64,000 nt of DNA from Patiria pectinifera (lineage: Eukaryota > Echinodermata > Asteroidea > Valvatida > Asterinidae): assembly GCA_029964075.1 (NCBI GenBank), contig CM057149.1, positions 7,636,465 to 7,700,464 on the forward strand, in the 5' to 3' direction. The notes under the pieces were generated by a model, which was not told the origin of the DNA, searched no databases, and saw nothing but the letters and a program-made list of their open reading frames with translations. Position numbers and translations under genes: made by a program. Of this stretch, positions 970 through 62,063 are shown one piece after another. The stretch's first letter is position 1; each line of letters opens with the position of its first letter.

Positions 970-3900
970 CTAGGTATGTAGCGCAAACATGCGTGTATGT
1001 GCATGTACAGCTGAAAGTGGACAATCAAAGAGATGGTTATCAGAAAGATCCAGGTCGACCAGATTTGGCATTTCACCTAGTAATGCAGAGATCTCGTCTA
1101 TGTCTGCATTACACAATGAGCACCCCCGTAATTCAAGCTTTTTTAGATGTGTCATGCATTTTAAATCAGACCATGCTCTTGAGCGAGACAGGGATACAAT
1201 CCCAGACCGATAGAGTTCAAACCAGGCGTACATGTCACTTACTGCTGCAACCATCTGTCCAAAATTTGTAGAACCTAAGTCAACCTTTTCCCGTTTTTTC
1301 TGTTGGTGAGACAAAATGTCTGCATCACTGAATGCGTACCTCGAATACAGCTTTTTCTTTGGAACCATTTGGTGAGACCATGCGCTGGTGTCAAAGCGAA
1401 ACTGATTTTCAGACAGATCCAGGTCAACCAGATTTGGCATTTCACTAAGGGATGCCGCGATTGGTTCAATGTCTTCGTAACTCAATGTGCACCGCCCTAG
1501 AACCAGCTTTTTCAATTGTTTCAGGCACTTTAGGTGAGACCATGCATCTGAGCCAGCCAGATTTTCATTTCCAGACAGATCTAGTTCAACCAGTGTGGGT
1601 ATATCACTTAGTGATGCAGTGATGGGTTCAATGTCTCCATGATTCAAACAACACTCCCCTAAGGCCAACTTTTTCAGTTGTTTCAATCTCTTTAAGTGCG
1701 ACCATGCACCCGAGCCAGCTAGGCCTTCATTTCCAGACAGCTGCAGTTCAATCAGGGTGGGTATGTCACGAAGCGATGCAGTGATGGTTTCAATGTCTGT
1801 ATCAATCAATGAGCACTCCCTTAAGGACAGCTTTTTAAGTTGTGTCAGACACTTTAAGTGCGACCATGTTCTTGTGCCAGACAGGGATACATTTCCAGAC
1901 AGATCTAGTTCAACCAAAGTTGGTATGCCACCGAGTGATGCAGTGATGTTGTCAATGTCTGCACGACTCAAACAACACCCCACTAAAACCAGCTTTTTGA
2001 GATGTTTCAAGCACCTTAAGTGAGACCATGCATCCGAGTCAGCCAGTGATGCATTAACAGATAAATCTAATTCAACCAGAGTGTCGCTAAGTGATGCAGC
2101 AATGGGTTCAAAATCTTTGTAACTCAATGAGCAACACTGTAAGACCAGCTTTTTCAATTGTTTCAGGCGCGTTAAGTGAGACCATGCTCTTGAGCCAGCC
2201 AGGGATGCGTTTTCAGACAGATCAAGTTCAATCAGAGTCGGTGTGTGACTAAGTGATTCAGCGATGTGTTTGATATCTTCACATATTAATGAGCATTTTC
2301 GTAATTCCAATTGCTTGAGATGTTTCAGTTCCTGCAATGCAGCTGACCAGGTACCTGCTTTGCCACTAAGGTCGTTAATATTGTCAATGGACACTTTGAC
2401 CAAGTCACTTCTACTTCCTACTGCTCTAACAATATTTGCCACATCAGGACCTTGAAATTTATTTGATGCGAGATGCAGCCTGATGCCAGTTCTGATTTTA
2501 CCTACTTCAAAGCATAAACCATCGGATACAAGGCAACACACGAGATTTGGCATGCATCCAACTACAGCAGCAATACACATCACGTCCTCCACTTTTAAAC
2601 CACATTCATCTAATGCCAGCATCTTCAGTTGTGTCAGCTGCTGTAACTTAGACAGTGACACACCTGAGCCAGCCAGAGATTTGTTTTCGGACAAATCCAG
2701 TTCAACGAGAGTGGATGTTCTACTCAGTGATAAAGCAATGTGTTCGATGTCTGTATAACTCAATGAACACTTCCCTAAGGCCAGCTGTTTAAGATGTTTC
2801 AGGTGCTTTAAGTGGGACCATGCATCTGAGCCAGCCAGGGATTCATTTCCAGACAGATCAAGTTCAACCAGGGTTGGTATGTTACTAAGTGATGCAGCAA
2901 CATTTGTAATATCGCCAGCTATTAATGAGCAGCTGTTTATCACCAATCGCTTGAGATGTTTCAGTTCCTGCAATGCAGGTGACCAGGTAGCTGCTTTGCC
3001 ACGAAGATCATTAGCATCTTCAATGGTCACCTCAATCAAGTCACGTCTACTTCCTATTACCCTCACAATATTTGCCACATCAGAACCTCGAAATTTTGTT
3101 GAGGAGAGATGCAGTCTTGTGCCAGTTCTGATTTCATCAACTTCAAAGCATAAACATTCCTCTGCAAGATATAACATACGGCAATAGACAAGATTTGGCA
3201 TACATCCAGCCACATCAGCAATACGTGTAACAGTCTCTACATTTAAACCACAATCATCTAGCGTCAGCATCTTGAGTTTTGTCAGCTGCTGTAACTTATA
3301 CAATGACACACTTGAGTCAGCCAGGAATACGTTTTCAGACAGATCCAGTTCAACCAGAGTGGGTGTGCTACTCAGTGATGCAGCAATGTGTTCGATGTCT
3401 GCATCCCTCAAAAAGCACCTCCCCAAGACCAGCTTTTTCAGTTGTTTCAGGCACGTTAAGTGGGACCATGCATCCGAGCCAGCCAAGGATTCATTTCCAG
3501 ACAGATTGAGTTCAACTAGGGTGGATGTGCTACTCAAAGATGAAGTGATGTGTTTAATATCTTCATCTTTTAATGAGCAGCTTTTTAACTCCAATCGCTT
3601 AAGATGTTTAAGTTCCTGCAATGCAGGTGACCAGTCAGCTGCTTTGCCACTAAGGTCATCAATATATTCAATGGTCACTTCAATCAAATCCTGTCTACTT
3701 CTTATAGCTCTTACAACTTTTGCAACATCAGGACCTTGAAATGTACTTGATGAGAGATGCAGTCTTATGCCAGTTCTGATATTATCCACTTTAAAGCTAA
3801 AACCATTCCATACATGGCAGTGCACAAGATTTGGCATACAGCCCACTACAGCAGCTATACACATCACATCTGCCACTTCTAAACCACAGTCATCTAGTGT

Positions 3901-6900
3901 CAGCATCTTGAGTTGTGTCCCTAGCTGCCGTAACTTAGAAAATGACACACTTGAGCCAGCCAGGGATTCATTTCCAGATAGATCAAGTTCAACCAGAGTG
4001 GATGTGCTACTTAGTGATGCAGCAATGCGTTCAATGTCTGCATCACCCAATAAGCACCTTCCCAAGACCAGCTTTTTCAGTTGTTTCAGGCACGTTAAGT
4101 GGGACCATGCATCCGAGCCAGCCAAGGATTCATTTCCAGACAGATCCAGTTCAACTAGGGTGGATGTGCTACTCAAAGATGCAGTAATGTGTATAAGATC
4201 TTTATCTATTAATGAGCAACTTGCTAATTCCAATTGCTTGAGATGTTTCAGTTCCTGCAATACAGCTGACCAGGTAGCTGCTTTGCCACTAAGGTCGTAA
4301 ATATTGTCAATGGACATTTCAACCAAGTCACGTCTACTTCCTATTGCTCTTACAATATTTGCCACATCAGGACATCGGAATTTACCTGAAGAGAGATGCA
4401 GTCTTATGCCAGTTTTGATTGCATCTACTTCGAAGCACAAATTATCAACTACATGGCAATACACAAGATTTGGCATACGACCAACTACAGCAGCAATACA
4501 TACCACATCGATTACTTCAAGACAACAGTCATCTAGTGTCAGCATCATAAGCTGTGTCATCTGCTGTAATTTATACAATGACACACCCGAACCAGTCAAG
4601 GGGTTTCCAGATACATCCAATTTAACCACAGTGGGCGAGCTACTCAGTGATGCAGCAATGTGTTCAATGTCTGTGCCTGTTAATAAGCAGTTTTTTAATT
4701 CTAAGTGCCCCAGACATTTCAGTTCTCGTAATGCAGGTGACCACTCAGCTGCTGAACCACCAAGTCCTTGAACGAAATCAATGACCACTTCAACTATGTC
4801 ACTCCTGCTACCCATGGCCTTTACAATATCTGCCACGTCAGAACCAGTGAACATCTGACCCAAGAGTTTAATCTTCAATCCCGTACTACATGGTGATAAT
4901 TGAAACACACCAGTGACAGTGCAGTGGACAAGCGTTGGCATACAACCAACCAAGGCAGCTACACATATTAGATCCTCTACTTTTAAATCACAGTGATTCA
5001 TGATCAGCGTCTTTAGTTGTGTCAGCTGCTGTAACTTAGACATTGACACACCTGAGCCAGCCAGGGAATTTCCAGACACATCCAAATTAACCAAAGTGGG
5101 CGTGCTACTGACTGATGCAGCTATGTGCTCAATATCTGAGCCTATTAATGAGCAGCTTTTTAACTCCAATCGCTTGAGATGTTTCAGTTCCCGCAATGCA
5201 GGTGACCAGGTCGCTGCTTTACCACCAAGGTCATGAATATTTTCAAGGGTCACATCAATCAAGTTCCGTCTACTTCCTACTGCTCGTACAATATTTGCTA
5301 CATCAGGACTTCGCAATTCACCTAATGACATATGCAGTCTTATGCCAGTTCTGACTTCAAGTACTTCAAAGTATAAACCTTTAAAATAATCAAACAAACA
5401 GAAATACACAAGATTTGGCATACATCCAACTGCAGCTGCAATAGATATAACATCATCTTCTTTTAAACCCCGGTTATTTAATGTCCGTATCTTGAGTTGT
5501 GTCAGCTGCTGTAACATACACAGAGATGATGCTGAGCCAGCCAGGGATTTAATTCCAGATAGATCTACATGTAGTGTAACCAGAGTTGATATGCCACTCA
5601 GTGATGCAGCAACGTGTTCAATATCCGTGCCTATCAATGAGCATTTTAAGGCTAATTGCTCCAGACATTTCAATTCTCTTAATGCAGGTGACCATACAGC
5701 TGCCGTACCACCGAGTCCTTGAAGATGCTCAATGACCACTTCAACTATGTCACTCCTGCGATTCACGGCTTGCAAAATATCCTTCACGTCAGTACCAGAG
5801 AGCATCTGAACCAAGAGTACCATTTTCAAACCAGAACCACATGGTAAGACTCGAAATATATTATTGACAGTGCATTGGATAAGCTTTGACATGCCAACTA
5901 ATGCAGCAATGCACTTTACATCCTCTGTGTTTGAATTAGTATAATTTAGAGATAAATGAAGTTCAGTCAATGTCTGCGTATTATAAAGAGACTCAGCAAT
6001 GAGCTCCACATCAGTGCTTGTTAGTTCACACATTTCAAAAGTCAACTTGTCTAGGTGCTTTAGTTCCTTAAACTGAGAAGTCCATAATGCTGCTGTGCCT
6101 TGTAGTCCCTCGATTTTAGACATGTACAGTGCAACCGAGTCTTTCCTGTTAACCAATGCCTTCAAGATGAGTTTCATTACGGTGCCATTTATTGATATTT
6201 CCTCTAGGTGCAGCGTAATACCATATCCTGCAACTACATTTACCCTTATACTTTTGGACTGTAGTTCAATCAAGTTTGGCATATCACTTAGTGACATAGA
6301 AATTTGCTCTGCATCACTAACCGTCAGAGAACAGTTACCTAGCCTTAATATCTGTAGACGTCTCTTATCTAACTGCGGCATCCAAGAATGCACTGACCCA
6401 CTTAAAGCTTCGTTGTCCGAAAGGTCAAGTTCAGACAACTTGTCAGCCTTGCCCAACGATGATGCAATGTGTGTCATACTGTCGGTCGTTAAAGCGCAAT
6501 TCTGCATTCTGACAACAGAAATATTAGGCATGTTGCTAATGGCCACTGCCAGATCTTTACTAAACCTTTCCAAGCTACTGTACTCGAAGTTTAATTTCTT
6601 AACTTTGTCGAGGTACCTATTGCCCGTGTTCTTCGTCTGGTTAACGACATGTTTGAGAAACCACACAAAGGAATTCCCATCATCACGGGTCTCTAGATAG
6701 TCCGGGTTTATCGTTTCAGTTATGACTGAGTGTATAATTGCCTCTGATAATATATTTTCTGCCTGACTCTCAAAGTAACAATTCAAGGCCATGTTTAATG
6801 CTGTATTTTCAGTCCCCTGGGTACAGGTAAGACTACTCTTATCATTGATCCTCTTCTCCAACATCTGCAAGACTTTAATAGTGCATGCTTCATTGTCACC

Positions 6901-8249
6901 ACAACAAAAGCGCAGCAGATAGTGAAACTTCTCCATGTCATCGAGTTTATCAAGATTCTTTTGAAATTCGTCAGCGTCTGATTTCTGTAAGCTTTGCAGG
7001 TAAACAGCAGCACAGAACTCCTGAATTGTTTTGTGGATAAACTGTATGTTGTTATGAGTGTCCAACCCTTTTAAGATCCTCTGGCTTGTAAGGATGCCAG
7101 CCTTCAAAGCTTTATCAAGCACACTCTTCTCAAACTCTCTGTCTTGAAATGAAAGCCGCTGCACTGGAGACACTAGGCCATGGAAAGCAACCTCTCCGAT
7201 TGCAACAAGGATCTCTGGTATTTCCCCCTCTGGTATACCTTTTCTTTTGAATATGTATTTTTGAGCCTCGCCATATAAGCGTGATATTGTGTTTGGCAGT
7301 GTGGAGTCTTGTCTCCATAATAAACACATTAAAAGGAGCAGCATTGGGCTACGGGCTAAATCAAAAAGGACAGCTGATGATTGAATGGTTTGAAAAAGAG
7401 TCTCGGCGTCATGGGGGCTTTTAGAAAAAAACTTTCCCAAGTAATTCTCAACATCTTCCTCAGAGAACCCCAAAACCTTTACGTGGGTGAAAGGTGTTAC
7501 AACCAGTGATTTGCTGACCAGTGTGCCAAATTGAGAGGTGCGGGTTGTTATAACCACATCAATGTCTGCTCCAACCTTTCGGTTTAGAATTTGTAGGATG
7601 GATCCAAATGATTTATTATCGAGTTTGGTGGTCATCAACTCATCAAAGCCATCCAGAAGAATTAACACCTTTTTAGGATTCTTGAAAATAAAGGTTTTCA
7701 GGTGGTTTTTATCGATAATGTTTGGATCGATTAGCTGCTCATATAGAGAATCAATGAGATCTGTAGTTTGTTCCAGTGCACTCATTCTCAGAACAAAAAC
7801 AAGCTTATATTTTGCTAAAGGGCCAGAGGAGATAGTTGCCCAGTCGTGTGCAATTTTCCCAATCAGAGTTGTTTTTCCCAGACCCGCCAACCCTTCATAA
7901 ATTATTCGATTGATAACAACACCATCTTCGTTTTTAATAAGGAAAGCACCCTCATACGTCACCTCCTCCCCATCTTCATGCCACCTCCATATCATGTCTT
8001 CCTTATTATTGACTAATCTTAACTTAGTATATATATCCATTATATGCCTCATGTCATCATCAACCCATGGAATCATTTGCACGTAACTGCCCGTGGTCTT
8101 GTATACCTTCTTAAGTGCCTCTTCACACATATCCGCTGCCGCATCTACTGCTGCATCGGTGACTGGACTGGTATCTTGAATTGTTTGTACTGCTGGGCTG
8201 CTTACCTCAGGTTTGTGTTGTAAAGGATGATGAACGGTTTCCGTGCCTC
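970..8249 (-). CDS. Gene A terminal exon: NACHT ATPase plus long LRR array
   Basis: A single 7.3-kb exon encoding about 2426 aa of an NLR-class receptor. The acceptor is tttttcaacag followed by GAGGC, phase 1. About 55 residues after the acceptor comes a conserved block (EEALKKVY, TTGSYVQMIPWVDDD). It is followed by Walker A GLAGLGKTT (about 7867-7893), Walker B VLILLDGFDE, a sensor-like VVITTRT, the LARSPMLLLLM segment, and IHKTIQEFCAAVYL typical of the NACHT helical tail. The rest is ribonuclease-inhibitor-type LRRs of 28-29 aa (for example LVELDLSGNESLAGS), grouped in larger blocks that repeat about eight times around a motif IVRAxGSRxDL...GKAATWSPAL. Oligomerisation of the NACHT and ligand sensing by the LRRs are family knowledge. 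The C-terminal tail HAHTRMFALHT departs from gene C's ending after LLSAV, so a late frameshift or unseen splice is possible. Confidence 0.93.
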
Positions 8250-11200
8250 CTGTTGAAAAATTGAATTCATAAACAATGGCTTGTGTGTGACAGTGAAAAT
8301 CTGCAAAATAAGTCAAAAGACGGGTGTTTATTTCGGGATGTTCAATTTATCACAATATGAGAGCATAAAGAATCAGAAAAATGTTCATAGCTATTAAGTC
8401 CGTCTAACATGTGACAGCCCAGCCTCCCCCTCCCAAAATATATATTGAAATCAATTAGTTTAATCCACATCTGGTTATTCTTAATATGAACTGTTAATTT
8501 ATTTTTTTTATCAATTGTGATCTTTTTAAACTATAAACTATATACGCAATGTTTAATTCTGAAAGCGGAAGTTTTCTCTAGTTCGCCAGGGCGTTTGCCG
8601 AACACTGTCATGAGAAAAACTATGAGTCCATGATGTTTCACATCGCATCATTAATTACATGTATCCAGGTTAGAATGAATAGCAGACAATTCGGAAAATT
8701 TCCATTGCATATTAACATCAACTCAAAACAAAGAAGCATGCACAGTAAATAAATCAAGGACACACAAATAGTCTTATGATTAACAAAAAATGACAGTTAG
8801 GTTACTGTATTATTTTTCACAGGACTAAGCATAAAACTAAATGCGGGAAAATCACTGCTGCACTCCAAATAGTGAGCTAAGTCTGCTTGCTTCAAATAGG
8901 CTTTGCCCTACATGATTATTTCATTTTCCCCAACAGCCCATTACTCATTAATTCATACATCAATGCAAAATGAGTGACTTAGATGTGATATACATAGGGA
9001 GCGTTATTTAGCATTGCTACATGGGGTCGCATACCTTAAATCGACACCCATAGACATCAATGATAATTACGCGCACTTCCATTCATGTTTAATACCTACA
9101 ACTCTCCAAGAGTTAAGACACCCATCAAATTAAAGGAATTAAAGTTTATTTCATCATCCTTAATTTTCTACTTAATTTTTGAGTGGTAATCCGATGACTT
9201 TAGGGAGGAAATTTCATCCAAAGATAATCACCCCTAAAAAAAGTGACCGTGGCACATCGCCATTTAAAAAAAAAACCCAAGCCTGCGCTCCATTGCATAA
9301 AAAAAAGCAATTCTAGGACCCCATTCCATGATCGAGCTCGCAGTCTTGTGCACGGCATTGACCAATATTGCCTACCGAGCTTCAATTACATTAGGGCATT
9401 CAAAATTGTGATTTTGCCCGCGTTAGCAATTTTTGGGCCTGTTTAAAGGTCTGCACCCATAGAGGAGCAAATTACAAGACTTAAATCACTATAATTAGCG
9501 CCCTCATGTTGTGTCCACCATATACTGCCATGCAACGGCATACAGTTGTACCAAAGAAAATATGTGACTCTCTAGCTTGCGGAACTGGAAATTCTTCCAT
9601 GTTAGTACTACCCTCGCCCTGCCCCTTCACCCTAAAAAATGCATTAGCACTTAATCTCAGATATCAAACTACTTTATTGTATCGAACAAGATTATATTTA
9701 CCTAGTCCCTCCAACGGCAAGTTGTAAGTGATATTAACTCCACTTGAACCAACAATAATAGGGTTCTGGCTGCCGCTGATTGTGTCGATGCTTCCTATGC
9801 TGGCTCCACCTCCTCGTGGGTAGTCTACAATCAAAAGCAAGTATTAAATTATTCTTCAACTCAATTCAATGATGGTTTATCAAAACATGTTTAAAACTGA
9901 ATTGTTCATGTGAACTTCATATCTGATAAAAAAAACAACCAACATAATATAATTACAAACAGAATATATTAAACTACAATGAACCTGTACATTAAATACT
10001 TAAAAATATGTGGGCAATTGAACAGAATCAAAACTTGAGCTATGTATGTTAAATAAACATATCATATGGCTTTTCTGCAAATTTGTATAAGTTTATACCT
10101 ATTTTGTCCATATGCAGTCATTTTATTGATGATTTTAATGTAAGAACAACTTTTCCTGACCTATTTGCTGCTTTTTGCTGCTGCACATTTTACAGGCATA
10201 CCAAAACAATCCAAGATAATGTCGATATGACGTAAGCTTCAATTTCATGTAAAACATATACGTAACTATGTATTTACATAGCCAATACATTTTTAAGAAC
10301 ATTTCTAGAGCATTTTCTAAACATTTATATTATGAACATTTAAGATAATAATAATAATAATGATAATAGTGAACATTTACACCGCGCCATATCTGTCAAT
10401 ATGACACTCCTGACGTCACATGACAAATAATGACTTCATGATGATGTCACTTGCTTAAGACCAACCAAAGCCTAGGGTCTTGGTCTGTGCCTATTTATTA
10501 TTTCACGACTAATTATTCCACTGTGCCTACTTATTATTCCACGACTAATTTCTTCATATATAGGAATTCAAAATATACACCTTTATTCTTAGATGACGAC
10601 TCGATCGTGACAAATGATGACGTCATAATGACACACAACCTAGTGTTGCCTGCAACACGTCTATGTATATTTGTTCATATCAAGTTCCAACACAATTGGA
10701 CTTACTTTCTTTAGATAAAAAAATCTTAAAATATAAACCTTTAAGATGACGTCATGTGACCATTGATGACATCATTATGACTTATCTAGTACCAAGTTAA
10801 CTTTAGGGTCTTTCGTATGACTAATTTGCTGTAATGTGAGAGGTGGAGAATAAATACTTGGTACGCACCAATTGATGACAGTTAATAAAGTCAGTTTGAT
10901 GATGGACATATTCACATTGGTTTGTGCAAGGAATGTCCATGTTGCTGCTTGGATGTTGAACATAGGATATGTGCATATATGTCTGTACAGCGAATGTCCA
11001 TATTTGTTTTAAACTCCGGGAGGAGGCATGATTGAGATGCCCCCTACCGTGAATCGCGCCGATGGATCCCATGAGAAGCTCTGCTAGGTTACGGTCTGGT
11101 GATACACGGACATTGGAAATGCCCTTACCTTTGTATGGCGAATGTTATATATCTGTATAAGATTGTACCTTTTGATCGGCTGGCCAAAGAGGCAGTGACT

Positions 11201-14200
11201 GATGCTAATACAGTTGAACTTCCTGTGTCAACTTGCTGTCTATCGCTTGCAAGTGTCTTTTCCTGTGAGTCTTCAGCTTCACTGCCAGCCATGTCTTGTC
11301 CGTCTCTCTTCCTTATTGTACCAGCAGCTGAGATACAAAAACAAAAACTTGAAACAGATCACCTGAAATAGTGGTTTGTCAAAGATGAAAGATAATATTG
11401 TTGAAGAAGCAAATTGCCATGTGTGAATCAAATCAAATGAAAATATGTTAACGATAGTATTACCGGTCTCTGACGGGGTACTAGCGACAGTACCGACTAC
11501 TGCCGATAACACCTGTTGCTTTGTCTCACCCAGGCTCTTCGTATTGGTTTCAGCTTCAGATGGTGATTTGTTGGCAGCTGTTCTTTTCCCCTTTTGTATC
11601 CTTCCAGAATTGTTGTCTTTCCTTGGCTGTTCTAATTTCTGAGTTTGTGTTTCCCCTGATGAGTGGGGAGCGGGTTCCTTAACTGCTGCTGAGGAGAGGG
11701 AAGTATTCTCTGAGCGATCTGAGTTTTCTTCCCGGCCACGGCTTGCCCTTGTTTTGGTAGCTTTTCTTTTTGCATTTTGAAGCCTTTCAGAATTGCTGTC
11801 TTTCCTTGGCTGTTCTAGTTTCTTTTTTTCTTTTTCCCCTGATGGGTTGCCAGCAGGTGCCTCAACTGCTGAGGAGATGGAAGAACCCGCTGAGTTCTTT
11901 TCACCAACAGGGCTTGTCGTTATCTTGGTAGCTTCTCTTTTTCCCTTTTGTCTCCTCCCTGAATCGTTGTCTTTTCTTGGCTGTTCTAGTTTCTGTGTTT
12001 GTGTTTCCCCTGATGAGTGACCAGCGGGTGCCTTAACTGCCGAGGAGATGGAAGAATCCTCCGAGTTATCTTCAATGCCAAGGCTTGTCCTTGTTTTGGT
12101 AGCTTTTCTTTTCCCCTTATGCCTCCTCCCTGAATCGTCTTTCCTTGGCTGTTCTGGTTTCTGTTCTTGTGTTTCCCCCGATGGTTGAACAGTGGATGCC
12201 TTAACTGCTGACGTGGTGGAAGAATCTTCTGAGTGATCAGAATGTTCTTGGCCCCCACTGTTTGTCCCTGTTTTGGTAGCTTTCCCTTTTTCATTTTGTC
12301 TCCTCTCTGAATCATTGTCTTTCCTTGGCTGTTCCAGTTTTTGTTCTAGTGATTCTACTGACGGTTGCCCACCGGGTGAATTTACTGCTGAGCATATGGA
12401 AAAGTCCTCAGAGCTATCCACAGTTACTTCACCGATACGGCTTGTCCTTCTCTTGGTAGCTTTTCTTTTTTCCTTTTGTTTCCTCGCTGAATCATTGTCT
12501 TTCCTTGGCTGTTCTAGGCTCTGTTCATGTGTTTCCCCTGATGGGTGAGAAGCAAGTGCCTTAACTTTTGAGGAGATGGAAGAATCCTCCGGGGTATCCA
12601 CATTTTCTTCACCGCCAAGGTGTTTCCCTATCATAGGAGCTTTTCGTTTTCCTTTTTGTCTTCTTCTGGAATTGTCTTTCGTTAGCTGTTCTAGTTTCTG
12701 TTCTGGTGTTTCCCCTGATGGCTTGCCAGCGGTTGCCTTATCTGCTGAGGAGATGGAAGGGTCGTCCGAGCTACCCACATCTTCTTTACCGCCAAGGTGT
12801 GTCCCTGTCTTAGAAGCTTTTCTTTTCTCCTTTTGTCTTCTCCTTGAATTGTCTTTCCTTGGCTGTTCTAGGCTCTGTTCTGGTGTTTCCCCTGATGGGA
12901 TGCCAGCGGTTGCCTTAACTGCTGAGGAGATGGAAGGGTCCTCCAAGTTATCCACATTTTCCTCACCGACAAGGTGTTTCCCTGTCATAGGAGCTTTTCG
13001 TTTTCCTTTTTGTCTTCTTCTGGAATTGTCTTTCGTTGGCTGTTCTAGTTTCTGTTCTGGTGTTTCCCCTGATGGCTTGCCAGCGGTTGCCTTATCTGCT
13101 GAGGAAATGGAAGGGTCCTCCGAGCTACCCACATCTTCTTTACCGCCAAGGTGTGTCCCTGTCTTAGAAGCTTTTCTTTTTCCCTTTTGTCTTCTCCTGG
13201 AAATGTCTTTACTTGTCTGTTCTAGTTTCTGTTCTGGTGTTTCCCCTGATGGGTTGCCAGTGGTTGCCTTATCTGCTGAAGAGATGGACAATTCCTCCAA
13301 GTTATCCACATTTTCCTCACCACCAAGGTGTTTCCCTGTCTTAGGAGCTTTTCTTTTCTCCTTTTGTCTTCTCCTTGAATTGTCTTTCCTTGGCTGTTCT
13401 AGTTTCTGTTCTGGTGTTTCCCCTGATGGGATGCCAGCGGTTGCCTTAACTGCTGAGGAGATGGAAGGGTCCTCCGAGTTATCCACATTTTCCTCACCGA
13501 CAAGGTGTTTCCCTGTTTTAGGAGCTTTTCTTTCTCCCTTTTGTCTTCTCCTGGAATTGTCTTTCGTTGGCTGTTCTAGTTTCTGTTCTTGTGTTGCCCC
13601 TGATGGGTGGGCAGTGGGTGCGTGAAGTGCTGGGGAGATGGAAGAGTCCTTCGAGTTATCCACGTTTTCTTCACCGCCACGGCTTGTCCTTCTCTTGGTG
13701 GCTTTTCTTTTTCCCTTTTGCCTCCTCGTTGAATCATTGTCAGTCCTTTCTGGTGAATCTCCTGAAGATACGGTTATAAACACATGTATCAAAATTGGCT
13801 CGCAAGAATCAGACAGTCAGATAGTTTCTCAAAGGATGACAACGCGTCACAAGTAGCTGAGTATATCATCATTACCTTGTCTACTAATAGGAGGTTGGAG
13901 AATCATTTTGTTATCTTCTCTTGGATTATTCAGTAAGAAAGACAATACAAGGTGAACTCTGACTAACCCACAAACTAGCCAACTCTTTTTGCCTACATAG
14001 GTAACTCATTACTGCTACAGAGATTACTCTTTACGCCAACAGAGGTAACTTTATACGTCTACAGAGGTGACTCTTTTTAGGTCAAAACAGTACCTGATGA
14101 CTGCTGTTCAACAACTCCACATGTGCAATAAGACACTGTACTCATAACTCTAAACATTTGACAAAAAAACGTCATCACTAGGTGAACCCTTGAACTGTGG

Positions 14201-17200
14201 AATTTGGTGAAGCACATAAACCCTGAAGGCCAGCTCATACTCTGCGAAAAAGCAAATGCAAACTTGAACATGAACTTGTGACTGCAAATTTGCAAATCTT
14301 GAACACATTTCAACTTAGCAAATGACGCAAAATTTGGTGACGCAACTAAATTCGCATCCGCACAAGCTTAATCTATGTGTATAAACTTTACCTGCTAATC
14401 TCTGTTCATCATCAGCTCCGCCCATCAACCCAGACACCAAGCGTAGCTCTATGTTGGTGTCTTGCTGAATTCCAAGTTCTTTGAGCGACATTCTACCCTT
14501 GAGCTAACATAGGGGGTTAAAAATATAGCAAAACTCTGTCAAGATATCAACTCTTTAATGATAAAATACTGGCATAAGTAAATATGTAGGATGTTGTGAT
14601 TGAATACTTACTGTAAAGAGGATTGAAAAGGAAATTGGAGAAATTTACTTGAAACAGATTTTACATAACTGTACCATACCTCATGGTTTTTCCTTGTATA
14701 TAGACGTTGTTTCTTTGGTTCAACCCCCATTTTGTCTTGTAGTAATCCTTTCAATGCTGAGATAGTAGTGGACGGATGTAGTTGTAGACATACAGGTGAT
14801 GTCAAAGAACTAATCACAAACAGCTGGATTTGGGATTCTTTTTTCTCTTCACCAGATGGTTTCTTGTCAGCAATTGTTTGTTTCCTTGTCTTCTTTCTCT
14901 CTAGATGAAAAACAACAAGCACATCGTTTTCTTTGACTTATTTGCACGACTTGGCTTCAAATGTAAATTTAATGAATAAAATATTCAACTGAACATCAAA
15001 GTTCACAAAGTTAACATTAAGTTTAGGACATAAATGAAGATCAGTATTTATGTGAATCAGAAGTGCTAATAATTGAGGTGACAGTCCTTAAACAGAATAT
15101 CAATTGATATTTCGTGAATGGGACACTTGCAATCACAAAAGGAATGGTTAAACATAATGACAATCAAACGTTTTGATTGATCACTTCCTATTTGGTTGTA
15201 AGTGTCAATGAGTACTAACAAAATAGCTTTAACACATGATTGCTGTATCAGCTGCTACATCAGACTTGAACAGATGTATAAGACACCTGCACTATTAAGC
15301 AGGAGGTCGTGGGTTCCAGTCCCACGAGTGAGCTTGTGATCTTTTATTTATTTTTTAGGGAGGAGCAGCTTTTGGACAGCATTAATTATACAATACTTAT
15401 TAAAATATAACAGTGAATGACAAAACCCATTATTGGAACAGAGAATTTACCTTTTGATTGGTTGTTTCTCTTAGCAGTGGTCTTGGCTAATGAGGAGACG
15501 GTGGAATTCCTTGAGTTGACCAACTTATTTTCAGCTTCATCACCTTTGCTTGTTTTATCGATGGATTCTTCTTTGGATGAGGATTTCTTGGCAACATGTT
15601 GACCTTTCCGCCTCTTGCCTGAATATTTCTTAGTCTTGCCTCCTCTGTGTACTATTCCTGAAGGGAAACAAACATATAAAAGTGTTGTAGCTATATTCTT
15701 CAGCTAGCGAAAAGGCATACCTGCATTCAGATCGTCTTTGATTTTGACCAAAAGCAAAACGTAAAAATGTACATCAAAATACCGAGATTTACCAGGTTTT
15801 CTTGTCAAGGTGTAAGACTCCCCCAAGGCATTTGAAGGATTTCGCTTTTCGTCATCTGAGGAAGTTTGTTTTTCAGCCGCATGAAATAAGAGTTTTTGTC
15901 TCGCCTTCCCGTGTCGTCGTCTTCTCGTCCTCTTTCTCCCTATAAAAAAGTAATGTTTATCAGCTACCGGGTTTACAATTCATGAACTGACATGCAAGGT
16001 TGCTTTGCCATTGTGCCAGCCTTACGTCCATGTAGCTATCTGACTGACTCAGACTGACTGACTCTGACCTATGAGCCAGGCATTACTAAACCATAACACC
16101 ACTGAAAGGGTTACAGCTGGCCCATTGAAAACTCTTGGAAGGGACTCTCGCAATCGTAAAATGAGTGGTTTAAACATAATGACAACCATACAGTTTGATT
16201 GATCACTTCCCATTTGGTTGTATACATCAAATTTGACCTGATGTAAGGCACCTGCACTAGAAAGCAGGAGGTCATTGGTTCGAGTCCCACCTGAGTGAGA
16301 TGGTGAATACTTATTGTTGCAAGTTCTCAAGCAGCATATAGTATGCCAGTGAATAGCAAAACCCATTATTAAATAGAGAATTTACCTTTTGATTGGTTGT
16401 TTCTCTTAGCAGTGGTCTTGGCTGATGAGGAGGCGTTGGAATCCCTTGAGTTGACCAACTTATTTTCAGCTTGATCATCTTTGCTTGTTTTATAGATGGT
16501 TTCTTCTTCGGATGAGAATTTCATGGCAATTTTTTTGCCTTTTCTTGTCTTTCGTGATTTTTTGTTGGTCTTGCCTCTACTTCGTATTTTCCCTGTGGGT
16601 AAATACAAATATAAAAGGACTGCAGCTGTTGCGTCTTCTTAAGCAAACAAAAAGGCATACCTTCATTCACAACAGCTTTGATTGTGATCCCTAAAAAGTA
16701 AGAAAGTACATCACAATACTGAGATTTACCAGGTTTTCCTGCTGAGGTGTCAGACTTCCCCAAGTCATTCAAGTGATCTTGCTTTTCATCATCTGAGGTA
16801 GTTTGTCTTTCAGCTTCATCTAATAACGGGTTTCGTCTCGCTTTCCCTTGTCGTCGTCTTCTTGTCCTCTTTCTCCCTGTAAGAAAAAAAGGTAATATTT
16901 ATCAGCAACCAAATTAACAAGTCCATTTTTATTGGTCCCAGTGCGCCAGCCTAGAGTCTTCTTAAAATGTGTACCTATCTGACTGACTGACATATCGACA
17001 CTTGTGAGCCAGGCAGTGCTACATCATTATGCTACTGAATGGGCTTAATCTGGCCCATTGTGTAGACCACAAGCATAAAAAGACTTCCGGTACATAGCTA
17101 TTATAAATCAATTGAATATAACTGTTTTCATCTTGTACCTGCTTTAAATGGCTTTTCTTTCTTTTTTCCAAAATAATACTCAAAGAGTGCAGACAAAGGA

Positions 17201-20200
17201 GTACACGCCTGAAGATTAAGCATAGATTTCAGTGTATAATCAAAATCCCAGCTAGGTTTTACCAAGTTTTGCTGCTGAAGTTGAAGAATTCCCAGAGTCA
17301 TTGGAGTGTTCTTGCTCTGCGACAGCTGAGGATGTTGGTCTAATGGTGTCATCTTTAGATGAGGAGGTGACTTGAATCATGCGAGGAGAACAAATGCTCA
17401 GGATGACACGGATTATGATCAGTGGGAGGCATAGAATCCACAGAAACAGGTCGAGTTTGGCGAAATGTGCGGCTGAGCTACCAGCAGTTGAAGAGTCATC
17501 TTGATCTAGGGTGGTTGATATTTTTCCTTCTTCACATGATGGTTCCTTTTCGACATGATATTGTCTTCGTCGTCTTCTTCTCTTCTTTCTCCCTAAAAAA
17601 TGTATATACCCTTGATCAATTTAAATAACATTTTTCTTATATTTTTTAGTAACCGACGTCCGAGAATTGGAAGTCTTTGGTGTTGTAGGATTCGAGTCCA
17701 GGACTCACACTTGGGCGCCGGGCCCATCTCGAGTTGCAATTTCAGTGGCTATGACTTGACCTGAGACATATTCACAAAAGATTTGGACTCGGACTTGACT
17801 ATCATTACTTGGATTTACTCAGTTGAACTGGAATTCTTATGTAAATTGAATAACTCGGACTGGAACCACTCGAGTCAAGACTCAGACTTTGATTCGAGTC
17901 CATGTCTTTACTAAATGAGTAGAATTGTACCTGTTGATTGGTCGTTTGTGGTTGTAGGGGAATCCCCCCAATCGTCGGTTGACCTCACTTGAAATTCCTC
18001 ATCAGAGTCACTTTGCCTAATCATGTCTTCTGTAGATGTAGATTTCTTCCCAGTTTTCTTTTGCCTCCTTTTTGTCTTCTTTCTCTCTAGAATATCACAA
18101 GGTAATGAGGCAGCAAGTTAATCAGCGCTACTAAATCATGCAAAACATGTAAGTTTATGTTTGTGAAGATATCGGTGGCTCCCTTGTACACTTTGTACGA
18201 CAGAAAGAATCCTTTTACTGCTGAAGATGGATTAACTCCCCCCTCCAGAAGATAAGGCCCCTAAATTCCCCCTTAAAAATTGTTACACCACTCTGACCCC
18301 GACCCCTGGCGACAAAGCCTGCACTTCCCTCCCCTCACCTCTATATGTAATCTCCTACCTGTTGTCTTCTGTTTGTCAGCTCCTCCCATCAACCCAGACA
18401 CTAGACGCAACTCTATGTTGGTGTCTTGCTCAATCCCATAATTCGCTAGGGAGAGGTCATCACGGAGCTGTGGACAACAAATAAAAGCTTGCTTAAGGCT
18501 TGAATTAATATATATATCACTTTCAAATTTCTATATTGCTTTTTCAACAGAAGGGAGACGTTAAATCTAAAATTGGGTATTGCATCTTTATTAGTGTCTA
18601 GACACCACAAGACAATCACAAGACCTCCAGTCTCAATTCAAGTCACAAACTATTCGAACAAATTGCAACAAAGGCATTTCTTTGCCATTGTTCGTGCCGT
18701 GTTATATTTACTTGTGGCTGGTCTTGTGCTTGGTCTACAATTGGTTTTGTGTCTAGTCATGTGATGGTCTCGACTACAACACTGATCTTCAGAGATGAAG
18801 ATCCAATCTTCCATGAACTTGGATGTAACATCAACATGAATATCATCATTATTTACCTCATGGTTTTTCCTTGTAAACAGATGTTGTTTCTCTGGTTCAA
18901 TCCCCACTTTGTCTTGTAGTAATCCTTTCAAAGCTGAGATAGTAGTGGACGGATGTAGTTGCAGACAGACTGGTGATGTCAAAGAACTATTCACAAAAAT
19001 CTGAATCTGTCGTTTCTGGCACGGTTTAGAACTATAGGTGAAGAAATAAAAAAATATGGCAAGTTTGAAAAAATTGCCTCTGAGGAAGTCCTTGCTAAGG
19101 ATGGAATATCATGTCACTCCAGTTGTTTTAAAGATTGAAAAAAAATAGTCCTGAAACCATACAATAATTATTGCTTGAAGGATTAATCCACTTAGACATG
19201 TACTGCATTGTATCACACTGTATTTATTTCCTGAAGAATCAATAAAACCATAGAGGACTTGGGCAGTTACAGGCGGTACAGAGATGGGTTAGGTATAGAG
19301 TACAGTAAATGTATAAATAAAATCTGAAATAATTTAAGCAACAGAATGAAAAGGGCAGGACCATGACTTGTGTAATTCGAAAAAATTTGAAGAGGACTAT
19401 CACATAAATTTCCTGAAACTGTTTCACAAACTTTTAAGATCTTGCATCCTTTTGATGCTCTTAAAAAACGGTCATCAAAATGAAAGTTAATTTTCACTTA
19501 CTACATTAGCAAACTTCGTTTTTCAACTTTTGATTATTTAATGGTTCTACCAAAAACTTAAATAGTGAATTATAGTTAAACCTTAATTAATCAATCCAAC
19601 TACAATTTTTCTTGCACCATTCAGCAAGCAAGCATGTGTTTAAAATGAACAAAATTCACAACCATGTTGTAAAAAAACTTTAAACAAAATGAACAAATTT
19701 CACAAGCATGATTTAAAAAAAAAACTGTTCTTAAATGTCTACTTACATGCATTCTTGATCCTCTGTGGAAGTTCTTGAAACAACAGACTTGGGAGGAATG
19801 GATTCTTGGTAGGACCTGGCAGCTAACAGTACTGATTGGAACGCCTCTTTCTTGGACTTGCGGACTTTTTTCTTTCTCGTGACCATCTTGGCCAGCGAGT
19901 GATCATTAATGTGCCGAGCAGCTCTCTTGGCATCCTCCAAGTCAGAAAGGGTCCTTAAAGGTTGCAACCAAAAATCCCCCTGGATATTGATAAAGTTATG
20001 ACAAATTTGAAATTAAAGGATACTCATAACTGTTTCATGATTTGTCAAATAAAACAGGAGGGCTTTAAGAAAATGCACCTCCATCGGAGTAATGCACTAC
20101 CACATCTAATTTTTGAGAAGGGGTATGATAGCCATGGAACAACGAATATCAAATATCTACCCTCCTCCCTCCCCTCCCCTCCCCTCGCCACACCCCATCC

Positions 20201-20522
20201 CAACCCAAACCCCAATCCACGAACAAGTTATGTCCATACAATTGCTGACATTACAATCGTTTAAAAAATAATTCAATGTGGTTATTTGAAAGGAAAAAAT
20301 TAAACAAATGTTTCCATAAATGAGGCAATTAGAACTACATTTTAACTGAAGCTTGACAAAGTAAAGTCAACAGAAGTTAGTGAATGGTGGTGGCTCAGTT
20401 GACCTATTTCAAGCGGGGAAGTATGAAGAAAAGCATTTCTGTTCGATCTTTAAATGCCAAACAGAGCACGACAAAGACCGATAGAACTTTGTTTCTTAGA
20501 AAATATCTACAATGCTTACCAT
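970..20522 (-). CDS. Gene A: Ubl / polyampholyte / RHIM-like / NACHT-LRR protein, whole predicted gene (17 exons)
   Basis: This is the predicted span from ATG to stop. Exons: 20520-20522, 19747-19979, 18857-19031, 18359-18467, 17931-18086, 17263-17592, 16730-16876, 16661-16690, 16386-16592, 15793-15939, 15451-15657, 14680-14900, 14392-14503, 11464-13761, 11169-11327, 9702-9824, 970-8249. Every junction has AG/GT ends, phases match at every join, and the sum is a multiple of three (11937 nt, about 3978 aa). From exon 4 on nearly all exons are symmetric phase 1-1, which favours shuffling and duplication. Domains in order: Lys-rich N-terminus, Ubl 1, basic/acidic exons with one hydrophobic segment, Ubl 2, tandem charged repeats, RHIM-like motif, NACHT, LRRs. 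The likely role is an innate immune receptor of the NLR class (inference). The alternative is two adjacent genes, one Ubl-type and one NLR, but no in-frame stop or terminal exon separates them. The NACHT exon of this copy has no ATG near its acceptor, so it needs an upstream exon. Confidence 0.68.
8250..9701 (-). other. Gene A last intron
   Basis: AT-rich sequence between the RHIM-like exon and the NACHT exon. It has GT/AG ends (GTAAAT at the top, tttttcaacag at the bottom). Around 8445-8470 the sequence taatccacatctgg continues uninterrupted where gene B carries a MITE, so it represents the empty site. Nothing else is recognisable. Confidence 0.6.
9702..9824 (-). CDS. Gene A exon 16: short RHIM-like / amyloid-like motif exon
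   Basis: A 123-nt phase 1-1 exon encoding 41 aa. The acceptor is gattgtag and the donor is CTAG followed by gtaaat. It begins with Gly-rich DYPRGGGASIG. Its second half, SGSQNPIIVGSSGVNITYNL, carries a hydrophobic-x-hydrophobic-Gly core (I-I-V-G, 9748-9759) flanked by Asn, Ser and Gly. That layout fits RIP homotypic interaction motifs and related amyloid signalling motifs. The homologous exons of genes B (33161-33379) and C (53186-53404) keep NP-hydrophobic-hydrophobic-hydrophobic-GSSSG. Placement directly before the NACHT exon matches the N-terminal effector position of NLRs. The gene A version has lost the N-terminal half seen in B and C. The motif assignment is inference; the exon itself is well supported by splice sites and homology. 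Confidence 0.7.
9825..11168 (-). other. Gene A intron 15, with degenerate repeats holding TGACGTCA palindromes
   Basis: AT-rich intron between exons 15 and 16. Perfect TGACGTCA palindromes lie at 10411-10418, 10618-10625 and 10747-10754, with near-matches around them, embedded in partly similar stretches (aaaatata-acctttA...gatgacg). At this place genes B and C carry a Gln-rich exon; no such coding sequence is visible here. Confidence 0.5.
11169..11327 (-). CDS. Gene A exon 15: Ser/Thr/Glu-rich linker exon
   Basis: A 159-nt phase 1-1 exon (acceptor gtatctcag, donor AAAAG followed by gtacaa) encoding about 53 aa. It starts AAGTIRKRDGQDMAGSEAED and ends VTASLASRSKG. No domain is recognised. 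The basic start followed by an acidic and Ser-rich run matches the pattern of the other linker exons. Genes B and C have a 165-nt version whose base before the donor is A, not G. Confidence 0.7.
11464..13761 (-). CDS. Gene A exon 14: about 14 tandem polyampholyte repeats
   Basis: A 2298-nt phase 1-1 exon encoding 766 aa, nearly all tandem units of about 55-58 aa. Each unit has a basic cluster (RRRQKGKRKA), a turn-like part (GGEENVD), an acidic/Ser patch (SEDPSISSAVKA) and a Pro/Gly-Glu segment (PSGETPEQKLEQPRKDN). The first units are closer to SGDSPERTDND. It begins after tatcttcag and ends ACCG before gtaata. The sequence should be disordered; the basic clusters resemble nuclear-localisation or nucleic-acid-binding patches, and the SED contexts resemble casein kinase 2 sites (both inference). 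Units near the middle are almost identical, a sign of recent unequal exchange. Gene B's version is shorter (1419 nt). Confidence 0.82.
14392..14503 (-). CDS. Gene A exon 13: second ubiquitin-like domain, C-terminal half
   Basis: A 112-nt exon, phase 0 to 1. It encodes LKGRMSLKELGIQQDTNIEL, then RLVSGLMGG, then ADDEQRLAG. This aligns with the last third of ubiquitin ([21 protein letters not shown]), including a terminal Gly-Gly. The chain continues past Gly-Gly, as in ubiquitin precursors and fusions. Confidence 0.83.
14680..14900 (-). CDS. Gene A exon 12: basic lead plus second ubiquitin-like domain, N-terminal half
   Basis: A 221-nt exon, phase 1 to 0. It opens with a basic stretch (ERKKTRKQTIADKKPSGEEK) and runs into SQIQLFVISSLTSPVCLQL, then HPSTTISALKGLLQDKMGVE, then PKKQRLYTRKNHE. 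It matches the ubiquitin fold order: beta hairpin (QIFVKTL...TLEVE), helix (SDTIENVKAKIQDKEGI) and strand (QRLIFAGK). The acceptor is catctag and the donor is GAG followed by gtatgg. The split between the two Ubl exons lies at the same point as in the first Ubl, so both came from one duplicated exon pair. Confidence 0.85.
15281..15330 (+). repeat. tRNA-like SINE-type remnant in intron
   Basis: An anticodon-like hairpin (cctgcactattaagcagg) is followed by a T-arm-like stem (cgtgggttccagtcccacg), the layout of the 3' half of a tRNA. No amino acid identity or A box is evident. Related copies lie at 16241-16295, 37961-38005 and 38921-38975. They occupy matching intron positions, so they were duplicated with the exons. 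Confidence 0.45.
15451..15657 (-). CDS. Gene A exon 11: basic/acidic linker exon (207 nt)
   Basis: A phase 1-1 exon (acceptor ccttcag, donor AAAAG followed by gtaaat). It encodes a Lys/Arg-rich start (GGKTKKYSGKRRKG), then Ser/Glu (SSSKEESIDKTSKGDEAENK), then SSLAKTTAKRNNQSKG. It is a paralogue of exon 9 (16386-16592, same length), part of a duplicated multi-exon cassette. No known domain. Confidence 0.75.
15793..15939 (-). CDS. Gene A exon 10: Arg-rich linker exon (147 nt)
   Basis: A phase 1-1 exon that starts GRKRTRRRRHGKARQKL and continues to EKQTSSDDEKRNPSNALGES, ending RKPG. It is a paralogue of exon 7 (16730-16876, same length). Between this exon and exon 11, the sequence at about 15725-15760 reads like the 30-nt micro-exon of the other cassette (KIKDDLNAG before a gtatgcc donor) but lacks the AG acceptor, so that micro-exon appears decayed. 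Confidence 0.75.
16241..16295 (+). repeat. tRNA-like SINE-type remnant in intron
   Basis: It contains cctgcactagaaagcagg and the B-box-like ggttcgagtcc. It is the cassette-duplicated counterpart of the copy at 15281-15330. Confidence 0.45.
16386..16592 (-). CDS. Gene A exon 9: basic/acidic linker exon (207 nt)
   Basis: A phase 1-1 exon with acceptor tacccacag and donor AAAAG followed by gtaaat. It opens GKIRSRGKTNKKSRKTRKGK, then KFSSEEETIYKTSKDDQAEN, and ends with the same SSSAKTTAKRNNQSKG tail as exon 11. Low complexity, probably disordered. Confidence 0.75.
16661..16690 (-). CDS. Gene A exon 8: 30-nt micro-exon
   Basis: Encodes GITIKAVVNEG across phase-1 junctions, with acceptor ttactttttag and donor GAAG followed by gtatgc. 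The exon and both splice sites are preserved exactly in gene B at 39347-39376, which supports it as real despite its size. Confidence 0.62.
16730..16876 (-). CDS. Gene A exon 7: Arg-rich linker exon (147 nt)
   Basis: A phase 1-1 exon with acceptor tttcttacag and donor CCTG followed by gtaaat. It begins GRKRTRRRRQGKARRNPL and then turns acidic (EAERQTTSDDEKQDHLND), ending SDTSAGKPG. Nearly identical in gene B (39416-39562). Confidence 0.76.
17139..17208 (-). other. Gene A candidate alternative 70-nt exon (stop-introducing)
   Basis: It has a good acceptor (taatcttcag) and donor (GCAG followed by gtacaag), both kept in gene B at 39830-39899 with the same 70-nt length. Its length is not a multiple of three. 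Joined to exon 6 in phase 1 it reads eight or nine residues to an in-frame TGA in both genes. Inclusion would therefore end the protein after the hydrophobic segment, or trigger decay of the mRNA. I leave it out of the main chain. Confidence 0.4.
17263..17592 (-). CDS. Gene A exon 6: Arg cluster plus hydrophobic, membrane-like segment
   Basis: A 330-nt phase 1-1 exon. It starts GRKKRRRRRQ, continues acidic (EKEPSCEEGKISTTLDQDDS), and then holds the only long hydrophobic run outside the NACHT-LRR exon, FLWILCLPLIIIRVILSIC (19 aa). A Ser/Asp-rich tail (SSSKDDTIRPTSSAVAEQEH) follows. The run is long enough for one membrane helix but contains an Arg (His in gene B). Membrane insertion is inference; a buried amphipathic helix is the alternative. 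The acceptor is acattttttag and the donor CTTG followed by gtaaaa. Confidence 0.75.
17640..17925. repeat. Gene A intron repeat rich in gactcgag words
   Basis: A stretch with many direct and inverted copies of acttg and actcgag (for example ttggactcggacttgac and ccactcgagtcaagactcag). It is shared with gene B at about 40330-40605, so it predates the gene duplication. The words resemble the subterminal repeats of the hAT-like element at 42872-43802, and it may be an old relic of one. Confidence 0.4.
17931..18086 (-). CDS. Gene A exon 5: basic/acidic linker exon (156 nt)
   Basis: The first symmetric phase 1-1 exon after Ubl 1. It starts ERKKTKRRQKKTGKKSTSTE and continues QSDSDEEFQVRSTDDWGDSP, ending NDQSTG. 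The acceptor is atattctag and the donor ACAG followed by gtacaa. Identical length in gene B. Confidence 0.76.
18359..18467 (-). CDS. Gene A exon 4: first ubiquitin-like domain, C-terminal half
   Basis: A 109-nt exon, phase 0 to 1. It encodes LRDDLSLANYGIEQDTNIEL, RLVSGLMGG, then ADKQKTTG. The LSLANYGIEQDT part matches ubiquitin's [10 protein letters not shown], and the domain ends in Gly-Gly like ubiquitin. The acceptor is ttgtccacag and the donor ACAG followed by gtaggag. Confidence 0.85.
18857..19031 (-). CDS. Gene A exon 3: first ubiquitin-like domain, N-terminal half
   Basis: A 175-nt exon, phase 2 to 0. It reads SKPCQKRQIQIFVNSSLTSP, then VCLQLHPSTTISALKGLLQD, then KVGIEPEKQHLFTRKNHE. 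QIQIFV, the helix TISALKGLLQDKVGIEP and HLF align with ubiquitin's MQIFV, TIENVKAKIQDKEGIPP and RLIF. Ubiquitin's Lys48 region (AGKQLEDG) is replaced by TRKNHE. The acceptor is tcacctatag and the donor GAG followed by gtaaat. Confidence 0.86.
19747..19979 (-). CDS. Gene A exon 2: Lys-rich N-terminal exon
   Basis: A 233-nt exon, phase 0 to 2, encoding GDFWLQPLRTLSDLEDAKRA and ARHINDHSLAKMVTRKKKVR followed by KSKKEAFQSVLLAARSYQES. The RKKKVRKSKK cluster resembles a nuclear localisation signal. The acceptor is tcaatatccag and the donor AT followed by gtaagt. The phase-2 end joins exon 3 exactly. No family recognised; nearly identical in gene B. Confidence 0.78.
20520..20522 (-). CDS. Gene A exon 1: start codon at an exon end
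   Basis: The ATG directly abuts its donor (ATG followed by gtaagc), so the coding part of exon 1 is one codon. Upstream context AGAAAA and, after splicing, GGG at +4 give a favourable start context. The same arrangement and flank occur in gene B (44211-44213). The 5' UTR probably extends to about 20575 but its start cannot be placed. Confidence 0.66.
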
Positions 20523-52022: not shown

Positions 52023-52056
<34 letters not shown>

Positions 52057-52321
52057 CGTTCCTCATTATCATCATCACTAACTAATCGTAAATTTGTGTA
52101 AATTTTCATGATATGCCTCATGTCATCATCAACCCAAGGAATCATTTGCACGTAACTGCCTGTGGTCTGGTACACCTTCTTAAGTGCCTCTTCACACAGA
52201 TCCGCTGCCGCATCTGCTGCTCCATCGGTGGCTGGACTGGTATCTTGACTTGTTTGTACTGATGGGTTGCTTACCTCAGGTTGGATGTGCTGTACAGGGC
52301 GCTGATCATTTCCCATTGCTC
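47436..52321 (-). CDS. Gene C terminal exon: NACHT plus LRR array
   Basis: A 4886-nt exon with acceptor actttttcag, phase 1, starting GAMGNDQRPVQHIQPEVSNP. It has Walker A GLAGLGKTT (near 51893-51919), Walker B LILLDGFDE, VVITTRT and IHKTLQEYSAALYL. About four LRR blocks follow, then single RI-type LRRs ending NLVELDLSGNSLFGG and a short tail LRRPNLDIKVDNFHQQ. A run of eleven Asp codons lies in the linker before the P-loop and is absent in A and B. The array has diverged from A and B more than they have from each other. Confidence 0.93.
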
Positions 52322-54795: not shown

Positions 54796-54928
54796 CTGAG
54801 GTATGGAAATAAAAACCTGAAACAGATCACTTGAAATAGTGCTTTGTTAGAGATAAGATTCAGATTCAATAAAAGATAATTTAGCTGACGCAGCAAATTG
54901 CCATTTGTGTAATTACTGAAAATGTGTT

Positions 54929-61975: not shown

Positions 61976-62063
61976 CTGCAACCATACAAAAAAATGACAA
62001 ATTCACGGAACTATTTGTAGATTTTTTTGGGGCAGTTTGAGACCTCCTTTACACTACTGAAGT

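Follow-up and report, generated by a model that had tools for sequence, protein, structure and literature searches.

A 64,000-nucleotide stretch of the genome of the starfish Patiria pectinifera (contig CM057149.1, positions 7,636,465 to 7,700,464 of the forward strand; hereafter, the window) carries on its minus strand an array of units, A, B and C, that encode putative NOD-like receptors (NLRs). Judged from the sequence, each unit is probably one gene, in which an N-terminal module, one or more ubiquitin-like (Ubl) domains, a charged region and a beta-type motif precede a NACHT domain and leucine-rich repeats (LRRs), and the best reading would be that a Ubl-headed class of NLR has expanded in starfish. 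The class reading rests on open joined frames, on conserved Ubl, NACHT and linker sequences, and on the recurrence of this order in independently predicted proteins. A preliminary description of the window had placed Ubl, polyampholyte, RHIM-like, NACHT and LRR parts in one gene; we retain its domain order and drop its RHIM label. It did not include the Death domains of sister genes, the LxGG tail of the Ubl, the SAMD9-like proteins with a similar head, or the difference in motif exon between A and B, all of which are described here.

Gene A (minus strand, 20522 to 970) could be joined from 16 exons into 11,907 nt, a multiple of three, encoding 3,968 amino acids, and gene B (minus strand, 44213 to 24430) from 17 exons into 8,988 nt, encoding 2,995 amino acids. 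In both frames the sole stop is the terminal one, so that, as had been proposed, no stop lies between the Ubl part and the NACHT exon. All 16 introns of gene B have AG/GT sites and their phases agree. The totals of the preliminary description, 11,937 nt for A and 9,018 nt for B, are also multiples of three and each exceeds ours by 30 nt, which indicates that one further 30-nt exon had been included in both. Phase agreement was rejected as proof of the chain, because 11 of the 15 introns of A are phase 1 and most exons would therefore join in frame by default. In a neutral simulation, the 2,046-nt chain of exons 1 to 12 stayed open in 5.7%, 1.05% and 0.2% of cases after 3%, 5% and 7% change, respectively; this chain is open in A and in B. 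What goes beyond chance is this openness in both genes, the low ratio of nonsynonymous to synonymous change in several parts and the agreement of junctions with annotated proteins, both given below.

The chain begins with the one-codon coding part of exon 1 (ATG|GTAAGC; 20520 to 20522 in A, 44211 to 44213 in B), which sits in a 301-base stretch that is 90.7% identical between A and B. The N-terminus of P0001, a predicted protein of Patiria miniata, reads MGDFWLQPL..., as splicing from this exon predicts, and together these observations bear out the one-codon first exon that had been suggested. Exon 2 (19747 to 19979; MVTRKKKVRKSKK) encodes this N-terminal module, matches P0001 and has a ratio of nonsynonymous to synonymous change (dN/dS) of 0.18 between A and B, in a comparison that took in exons 2 to 12, the linker, NACHT, and the charged and motif exons shared by B and C. 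Exons 3 (18857 to 19031) and 4 (18359 to 18467) encode the first and second halves of Ubl 1 (PF00240, E 3.3e-9; 36.8 bits against a cut-off of 25.4; dN/dS 0.38 and 0.29), and exons 11 and 12 (14900 to 14680 and 14503 to 14392) encode Ubl 2 (E 4.9e-7; 29.9 bits; dN/dS 0.58 and 0.13). Both end in an LMGG tail, the GG of which falls on the C-terminal GG of ubiquitin in the phmmer alignment, and gene B scores 49.2 bits over its two N-terminal ubiquitin stretches.

Between the two Ubls of gene A lie charged exons: exon 5 (17931 to 18086), which is open, has 1-1 phase and has both junctions matched in the comparison described below; exon 6 (17263 to 17592), which also holds a hydrophobic stretch (LFLWILCLPLIIIRVILSI); and exons 7, 8, 9 and 10 (16876 to 16730, 16592 to 16386, 15939 to 15793 and 15657 to 15451), which form two similar pairs, 7 cross-matching 9 and 8 cross-matching 10, again with matched junctions. 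The hydrophobic stretch of 19 residues (hydropathy 2.71 in A; 2.51 in B, at 39955 to 40284) is possibly a membrane segment; one also follows the Ubl of Asterias P0014 (2.04), and none of 1.6 or more was found upstream of NACHT in P0005, P0007, P0010, P0011 or P0016. Exon 13 (11464 to 13761) is a polyampholyte repeat exon of about 765 residues (K+R 20%, D+E 16%) with no Pfam match at E <= 1, and a 136-nt intron (11328 to 11463) separates it from the linker, exon 14 (11169 to 11327), for which dN/dS is 0.26 between A and B and 0.29 between A and C. Exon 15 (9702 to 9824; GASIGSIDTISGSQNPIIVGSSGVNITYN) is the short motif exon that had been called RHIM-like. Exon 16 (970 to 8249) is the NACHT-LRR exon (dN/dS 0.29 between A and B), with NACHT (PF05729) at E 1.4e-22 and 80.7 bits against a cut-off of 26.7, and with LRR families above their cut-offs. 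In gene B, NACHT reaches E 1.3e-24 and 87.4 bits, and in both genes LRRs lie C-terminal of it (PF12799; 76.6 bits in A and 42.1 in B, cut-off 27). The plan of B and C differs from that of A in a further charged exon (957 nt in B, 945 nt in C) and in the motif exon, which is of a second type (exon 16 of gene B, 33161 to 33379, minus strand; DVNVPGSCNPVFLGSSSGHTFNY). The B/C comparison gives this motif exon a dN/dS of 0.35, and the linker one of 0.08.

The annotated proteins closest to the window genes are those of P. miniata; gene B shares 87.0% identity with P0004 (1,674 columns) and 92.8% with P0022 (822 columns). Windows of up to 28 residues across each exon junction were compared with six proteins of P. 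miniata. Every one of the 16 junctions of B was matched (best matches 79-100%), as were 13 of the 15 junctions of A (71-100%), though not all by one protein. We consider the Ubl-to-NACHT join in B-type units to be well supported.

The same order is seen in predicted proteins of other starfish. Our protein searches took the Ubl part as their target, with NACHT calls taken from precomputed Pfam lists, and returned 43 distinct proteins, in 36 of which the Ubl model finds a Ubl. P0025, which combines kinase and ubiquitin families, was set aside, and the remaining 35 are named as starfish proteins; in the profile search A2 (18 proteins, 7,985 candidates scored), P0023, P0024 and P0025 are not named as starfish. 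Ubl and NACHT occur in one predicted polypeptide in 20 of the 35 (eight from P. miniata, six from Acanthaster planci, three from Asterias rubens and three from A. amurensis); 15 of these 20 also have a named LRR family, and eight have a Death domain. The preliminary description had suggested a search of related genomes for Ubl, NACHT and LRR together; these predicted proteins, from four species, support the architecture. SAMD9-like proteins make up four of the 35, and P0018 is counted among the 20 with a Ubl that is a 23-residue tail only.

The order also recurs across the genome (613.5 Mb, 1,020 contigs), in which 101 of 439 NACHT candidates were scored and 103 of 150 rows of the Ubl search were used, second-half exon rows and repeats of a polyubiquitin array being left out. 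Within 7 kb, a cut picked after the distances were seen, 14 same-strand pairs have Ubl upstream of NACHT, none has it downstream, and none is on opposite strands; within 15 kb, a set that covers 15 of the 101 NACHT hits, 23 pairs are upstream, 12 downstream (at 8.3 kb or more) and none opposite, all of these counts coming from related genes and not from independent events. In relatives on another contig, C17, whose NACHT is about 50% identical to that of A, Ubl exons lie on the 5' side of NACHT, and at the four of these loci that were read frame by frame (L029, L030, L031 and L035) Death-type exons stand among the Ubl exons. Two Death domains from L031, the two tested, gave E 1.2e-12 and 4e-13. 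No Death domain was found in residues 1 to 1622 of gene B, in the Ubl exons of A or in exon 13 of A, the parts scanned. At C17 locus L034, the N-terminal part of NACHT falls into two overlapping tblastn pieces, possibly owing to a frameshift.

The short motif exon is itself widespread. Exon 15 of gene A has at least 124 matches in the genome (for example on C10, C11, C16, C17 and C22), and 123 of the 124 are without a stop. The copies appear alike in the exon and in its flanks, and many lie 5' of NACHT exons. A motif exon stands 1.2-8.2 kb upstream of NACHT on the same strand for 21 of the 101 NACHT hits, downstream near 9.8 kb for two and on the opposite strand for none, and at two C22 motif loci a long open reading frame with what by eye is a P-loop-like stretch lies beside the motif. 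The B-type motif was also picked out by eye in Acanthaster P0005 and, in looser form, in P0007 and P0014 of Asterias, and hhalign aligned the A-type and B-type motifs over 14 columns, GSxNPxxxG, with a probability of 56% and E 1.1e-4.

A glycine-rich motif with alternating hydrophobic residues (NPxxxG...V.I.Y), placed between head and NACHT in many genes, could be a true RHIM, in which case these receptors would be animal amyloid NLRs that template like fungal NWD2 and PNT1; PMC7889193, in the passages that bear on the matter, leaves undecided whether RHIM is the sole signalling amyloid of animals. We consider a true RHIM here to be quite unlikely. None of the 27 motif peptides (18 and 9 of two sets) matched Pfam-A at E <= 10, in a search with a very short motif that had no positive control and whose filters remove the bulk of matches with E above about 0.1; the RHIM family of Pfam is PF12721. 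Profile searches of the PDB with the motif, likewise without a positive control, listed 4 and 7 sequences at weak E-values and no RHIM chain, the matches including designed beta-trefoils and serralysin repeats. Moreover, dN/dS among A-type motif exons is 0.94 over 153 pairs, from 18 of 19 copies, one not being bounded and two (111 and 114 nt) possibly mis-bounded; exon length is uninformative in this codon test, because a multiple of three was a selection criterion. The RHIM identity of the exon is therefore unsupported by the Pfam-A and PDB profile searches, and we call it a short, putatively beta-type motif.

Several observations weigh against the reading of each unit as one gene. Some of them would suit a unit made of two adjacent genes, or yielding two main transcripts, that gene predictors fuse: one for the Ubl and polyampholyte parts, and one for an NLR whose start lies in the linker, the charged, the motif or the NACHT exon. 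Eleven of the 35 Ubl-bearing models (P0001, P0013, P0021, P0022, P0026, P0030, P0031, P0033, P0035, P0037 and P0040) carry no NACHT and are not named SAMD9-like, and may reflect shorter transcripts or split genes. Three of the eleven, P0001, P0021 and P0031, are labelled isoform X2; P0021, however, continues into the sequence of the start of the NACHT exon. Starfish NACHT models without a Ubl are also found (P0004, P0015, P0019 and P0020). Gene models of the array are unreliable: the boundary between the separate models P0001 and P0004 falls inside a single exon of gene B, and P0017 merges two units into one model; for the latter reason, P0017 was rejected as a full-length orthologue of A. In gene A, the linker/motif and motif/NACHT junctions have best matches of 39% and 36%, i.e., they are unmatched, and the Ubl-to-NACHT join of A therefore rests on splice sites and phase.

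Start codons bear on the same choice. In B and C, the NACHT exon has an in-frame ATG shortly after it begins; this ATG is absent in P0002 and in A, the latter as the preliminary description had stated. In-frame ATGs also occur within charged exon 15 and the motif exon of gene B, so that translation of B could begin downstream of the linker. The in-frame ATG in the linker of A is replaced by ACT in B and by ACG in C, and the frame is conserved upstream of it; it was therefore rejected as a general start for the NLR. A separate NLR would thus have no start codon at a common place among the copies, and the 136 nt before the linker of A leave little room for the end of one gene plus the promoter of another. 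Fused models, furthermore, come from four species and two divergent families. We judge two genes per unit to be improbable, and continue to favour a single gene.

Codon constraint is uneven along the chain. Exons 5, 6 and 8 have dN/dS of 0.90, 0.95 and 1.77 between A and B, and the charged exon shared by B and C has 0.92, so that much of the charged part is apparently unconstrained; exons 9 and 10 give 0.57 and 0.45, and the copies of exon 7 do not differ. These values, the ratio among A-type motif exons and the relatedness of the genes behind the order counts are further points to be set against a single gene. That dN/dS approaches or exceeds 1 in a number of charged exons and among A-type motif exons, that unit C breaks off at a gap and that P0036 has seemingly lost the canonical P-loop (by eye) could also be explained if the units were partly dead duplicates, the array being a graveyard of NLR copies whose joined chain is not expressed as protein. 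Such decay is hard to square with the 11.9 kb of A and 9.0 kb of B without an internal stop and with NACHT dN/dS near 0.3, and neutral drift of 5-20% would in simulation have given a stop in 19-51% of motif-exon copies, against the one stop in 124 matches. We regard it as very improbable indeed.

The Ubl domains of the proposed single-gene receptors keep a ubiquitin-type end. LxGG is present in 38 of the 48 Ubl domains from starfish and in at least one Ubl of each of the 35 proteins, in a set whose members are not independent and were found with a hidden Markov model seeded with GG-bearing sequences, the tail being internal and without a free C-terminus. All ten Ubls that lack LxGG are the first of two, and in these cases the second keeps it; among genomic second-half exons of the Ubl (L009 to L040), 29 of 35 have it. 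An AlphaFold2 model of Asterias P0014, of modest quality (mean pLDDT, the predicted local distance difference test score, 63.9; predicted TM-score 0.46; 7 sequences), places in the Ubl strands at 63-69 and 76-80, a helix at 86-97 and strands at 104-108 and 129-135, a beta-beta-alpha-beta-beta order, with pLDDT of 68-85 in the block of residues 61-130.

How an NLR signals is set by its head. We suggest that NACHT would oligomerise as in other NLRs and so gather many Ubl domains, and that the clustered Ubls could then serve as the signalling head. That this head docks ubiquitin-binding adaptors non-covalently is a tentative but reasonable proposal. Because processed ubiquitin fusions retain a C-terminal GG-type tail, processing at LxGG ranks as a serious mechanism, and the receptor might be cut after the tail to release a Ubl-ended fragment, a proposal that we rate somewhat below docking. 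Further still, and on balance unlikely, starfish receptors, NLR and SAMD9-like alike, might carry their own ubiquitin-like modifier: the functional LxGG end of the NACHT-proximal Ubl would be cut on activation, or by a pathogen protease, and the freed Ubl-ended head would be conjugated to targets or would nucleate a ubiquitin-type platform. If the single-gene reading is true, a large Ubl-headed class, some members with Death domains, would tie NLR oligomerisation directly to ubiquitin signalling in one polypeptide. With LxGG retained, it could be clearly tested whether a modifier borne by a receptor can be released, and Patiria and Asterias, in which the class is open to testing, serve as laboratory animals.

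The heads of known animal NLRs are mostly Death-fold domains, those of mammalian NLRs such as NLRC4 and NLRP3 being mostly CARD or PYD, and sea urchin NLRs have the order DEATH-NACHT-LRR. The starfish genes share with the latter the NACHT-LRR core and a lineage expansion, and the C17 relatives have Death 5' of NACHT; in contrast, A and B have two Ubls, charged repeats and a motif exon, and gene B has no Death domain in its N-terminal 1,622 residues. In sea urchin, an expansion of NACHT and DEATH-like domains is reported in passages of PMC3308324. The predicted P0014 structure has NLRC4 as its best Foldseek match (E 4.7e-25), with low TM-scores (0.19-0.42 by query length) among the 50 matches listed. 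Fungal and bacterial amyloid NLRs (PP, HET-s and BASS) likewise have a short motif N-terminal of the nucleotide-binding domain, according to parts of PMC7889193; the starfish motif gave no sequence match to a known amyloid motif in the profile searches. With processed ubiquitin fusions such as RPS27A, the starfish Ubl shares family sequence and a GG at the ubiquitin position, whereas it would sit inside a long receptor.

The SAMD9-like proteins P0006, P0008, P0009 and P0012, from Patiria and Acanthaster, have a Ubl with an LxGG tail and, by eye, a similar N-terminal module, and the head has therefore possibly been swapped between immune NTPases. They have no NACHT in the precomputed Pfam lists, and a scan of P0006 gave weak nSTAND and TPR matches. 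In P0036, P0031 and P0012, the Ubl or Death part is followed, ahead of the remainder of the protein, by a region that presumably resembles TRADD-N, as judged by eye. Large TRADD-N expansions in starfishes, and TRADD-N fused to polyubiquitin, are described in passages of PMC8195603 that do not mention Ubl-NLRs, and PMC13133943 lists Ig, transmembrane and glycosyltransferase domains as unusual partners of NACHT, in a main text in which the word ubiquitin does not appear. Among the matches listed in a search of the open-licence literature, no paper describing Ubl-NACHT-LRR was found, which is in keeping with the earlier suggestion of an undescribed NLR class, its RHIM part apart. As far as could be searched, a Ubl head for NLRs in starfish, as predicted from these genes, is real and undescribed.

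Unit C (47436 to 54800, minus strand) comprises a linker (54793 to 54632), a charged exon (54489 to 53545), a motif exon (53404 to 53186) and a NACHT-LRR open reading frame ending at 47436. No Ubl exon lies upstream of it in the assembly, where its 5' part is interrupted by a gap of 500 N (54929 to 55428); since its 5' end falls at this gap, unit C could not be used as an example of an NLR without a Ubl. For positions 55431 to 64000, neither blastn against the other parts of the window (E 1e-10) nor tblastn with the six P. miniata proteins (E 1e-3) gave a match, and the 8.5 kb beyond the gap, unlike the other units at these thresholds, may mark an assembly break or a rearrangement.

The exons of gene B, from 1 to 17, lie at 44213-44211, 42736-42504, 41850-41676, 41162-41054, 40782-40627, 40284-39955, 39562-39416, 39278-39072, 38623-38477, 38341-38135, 37525-37305, 37124-37013, 36343-34925, 34768-34604, 34473-33517, 33379-33161 and 28610-24430. 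The last intron (28611 to 33160) is about 4.5 kb long, compared with 1.45 kb in A, and possibly holds a mobile-element insertion.

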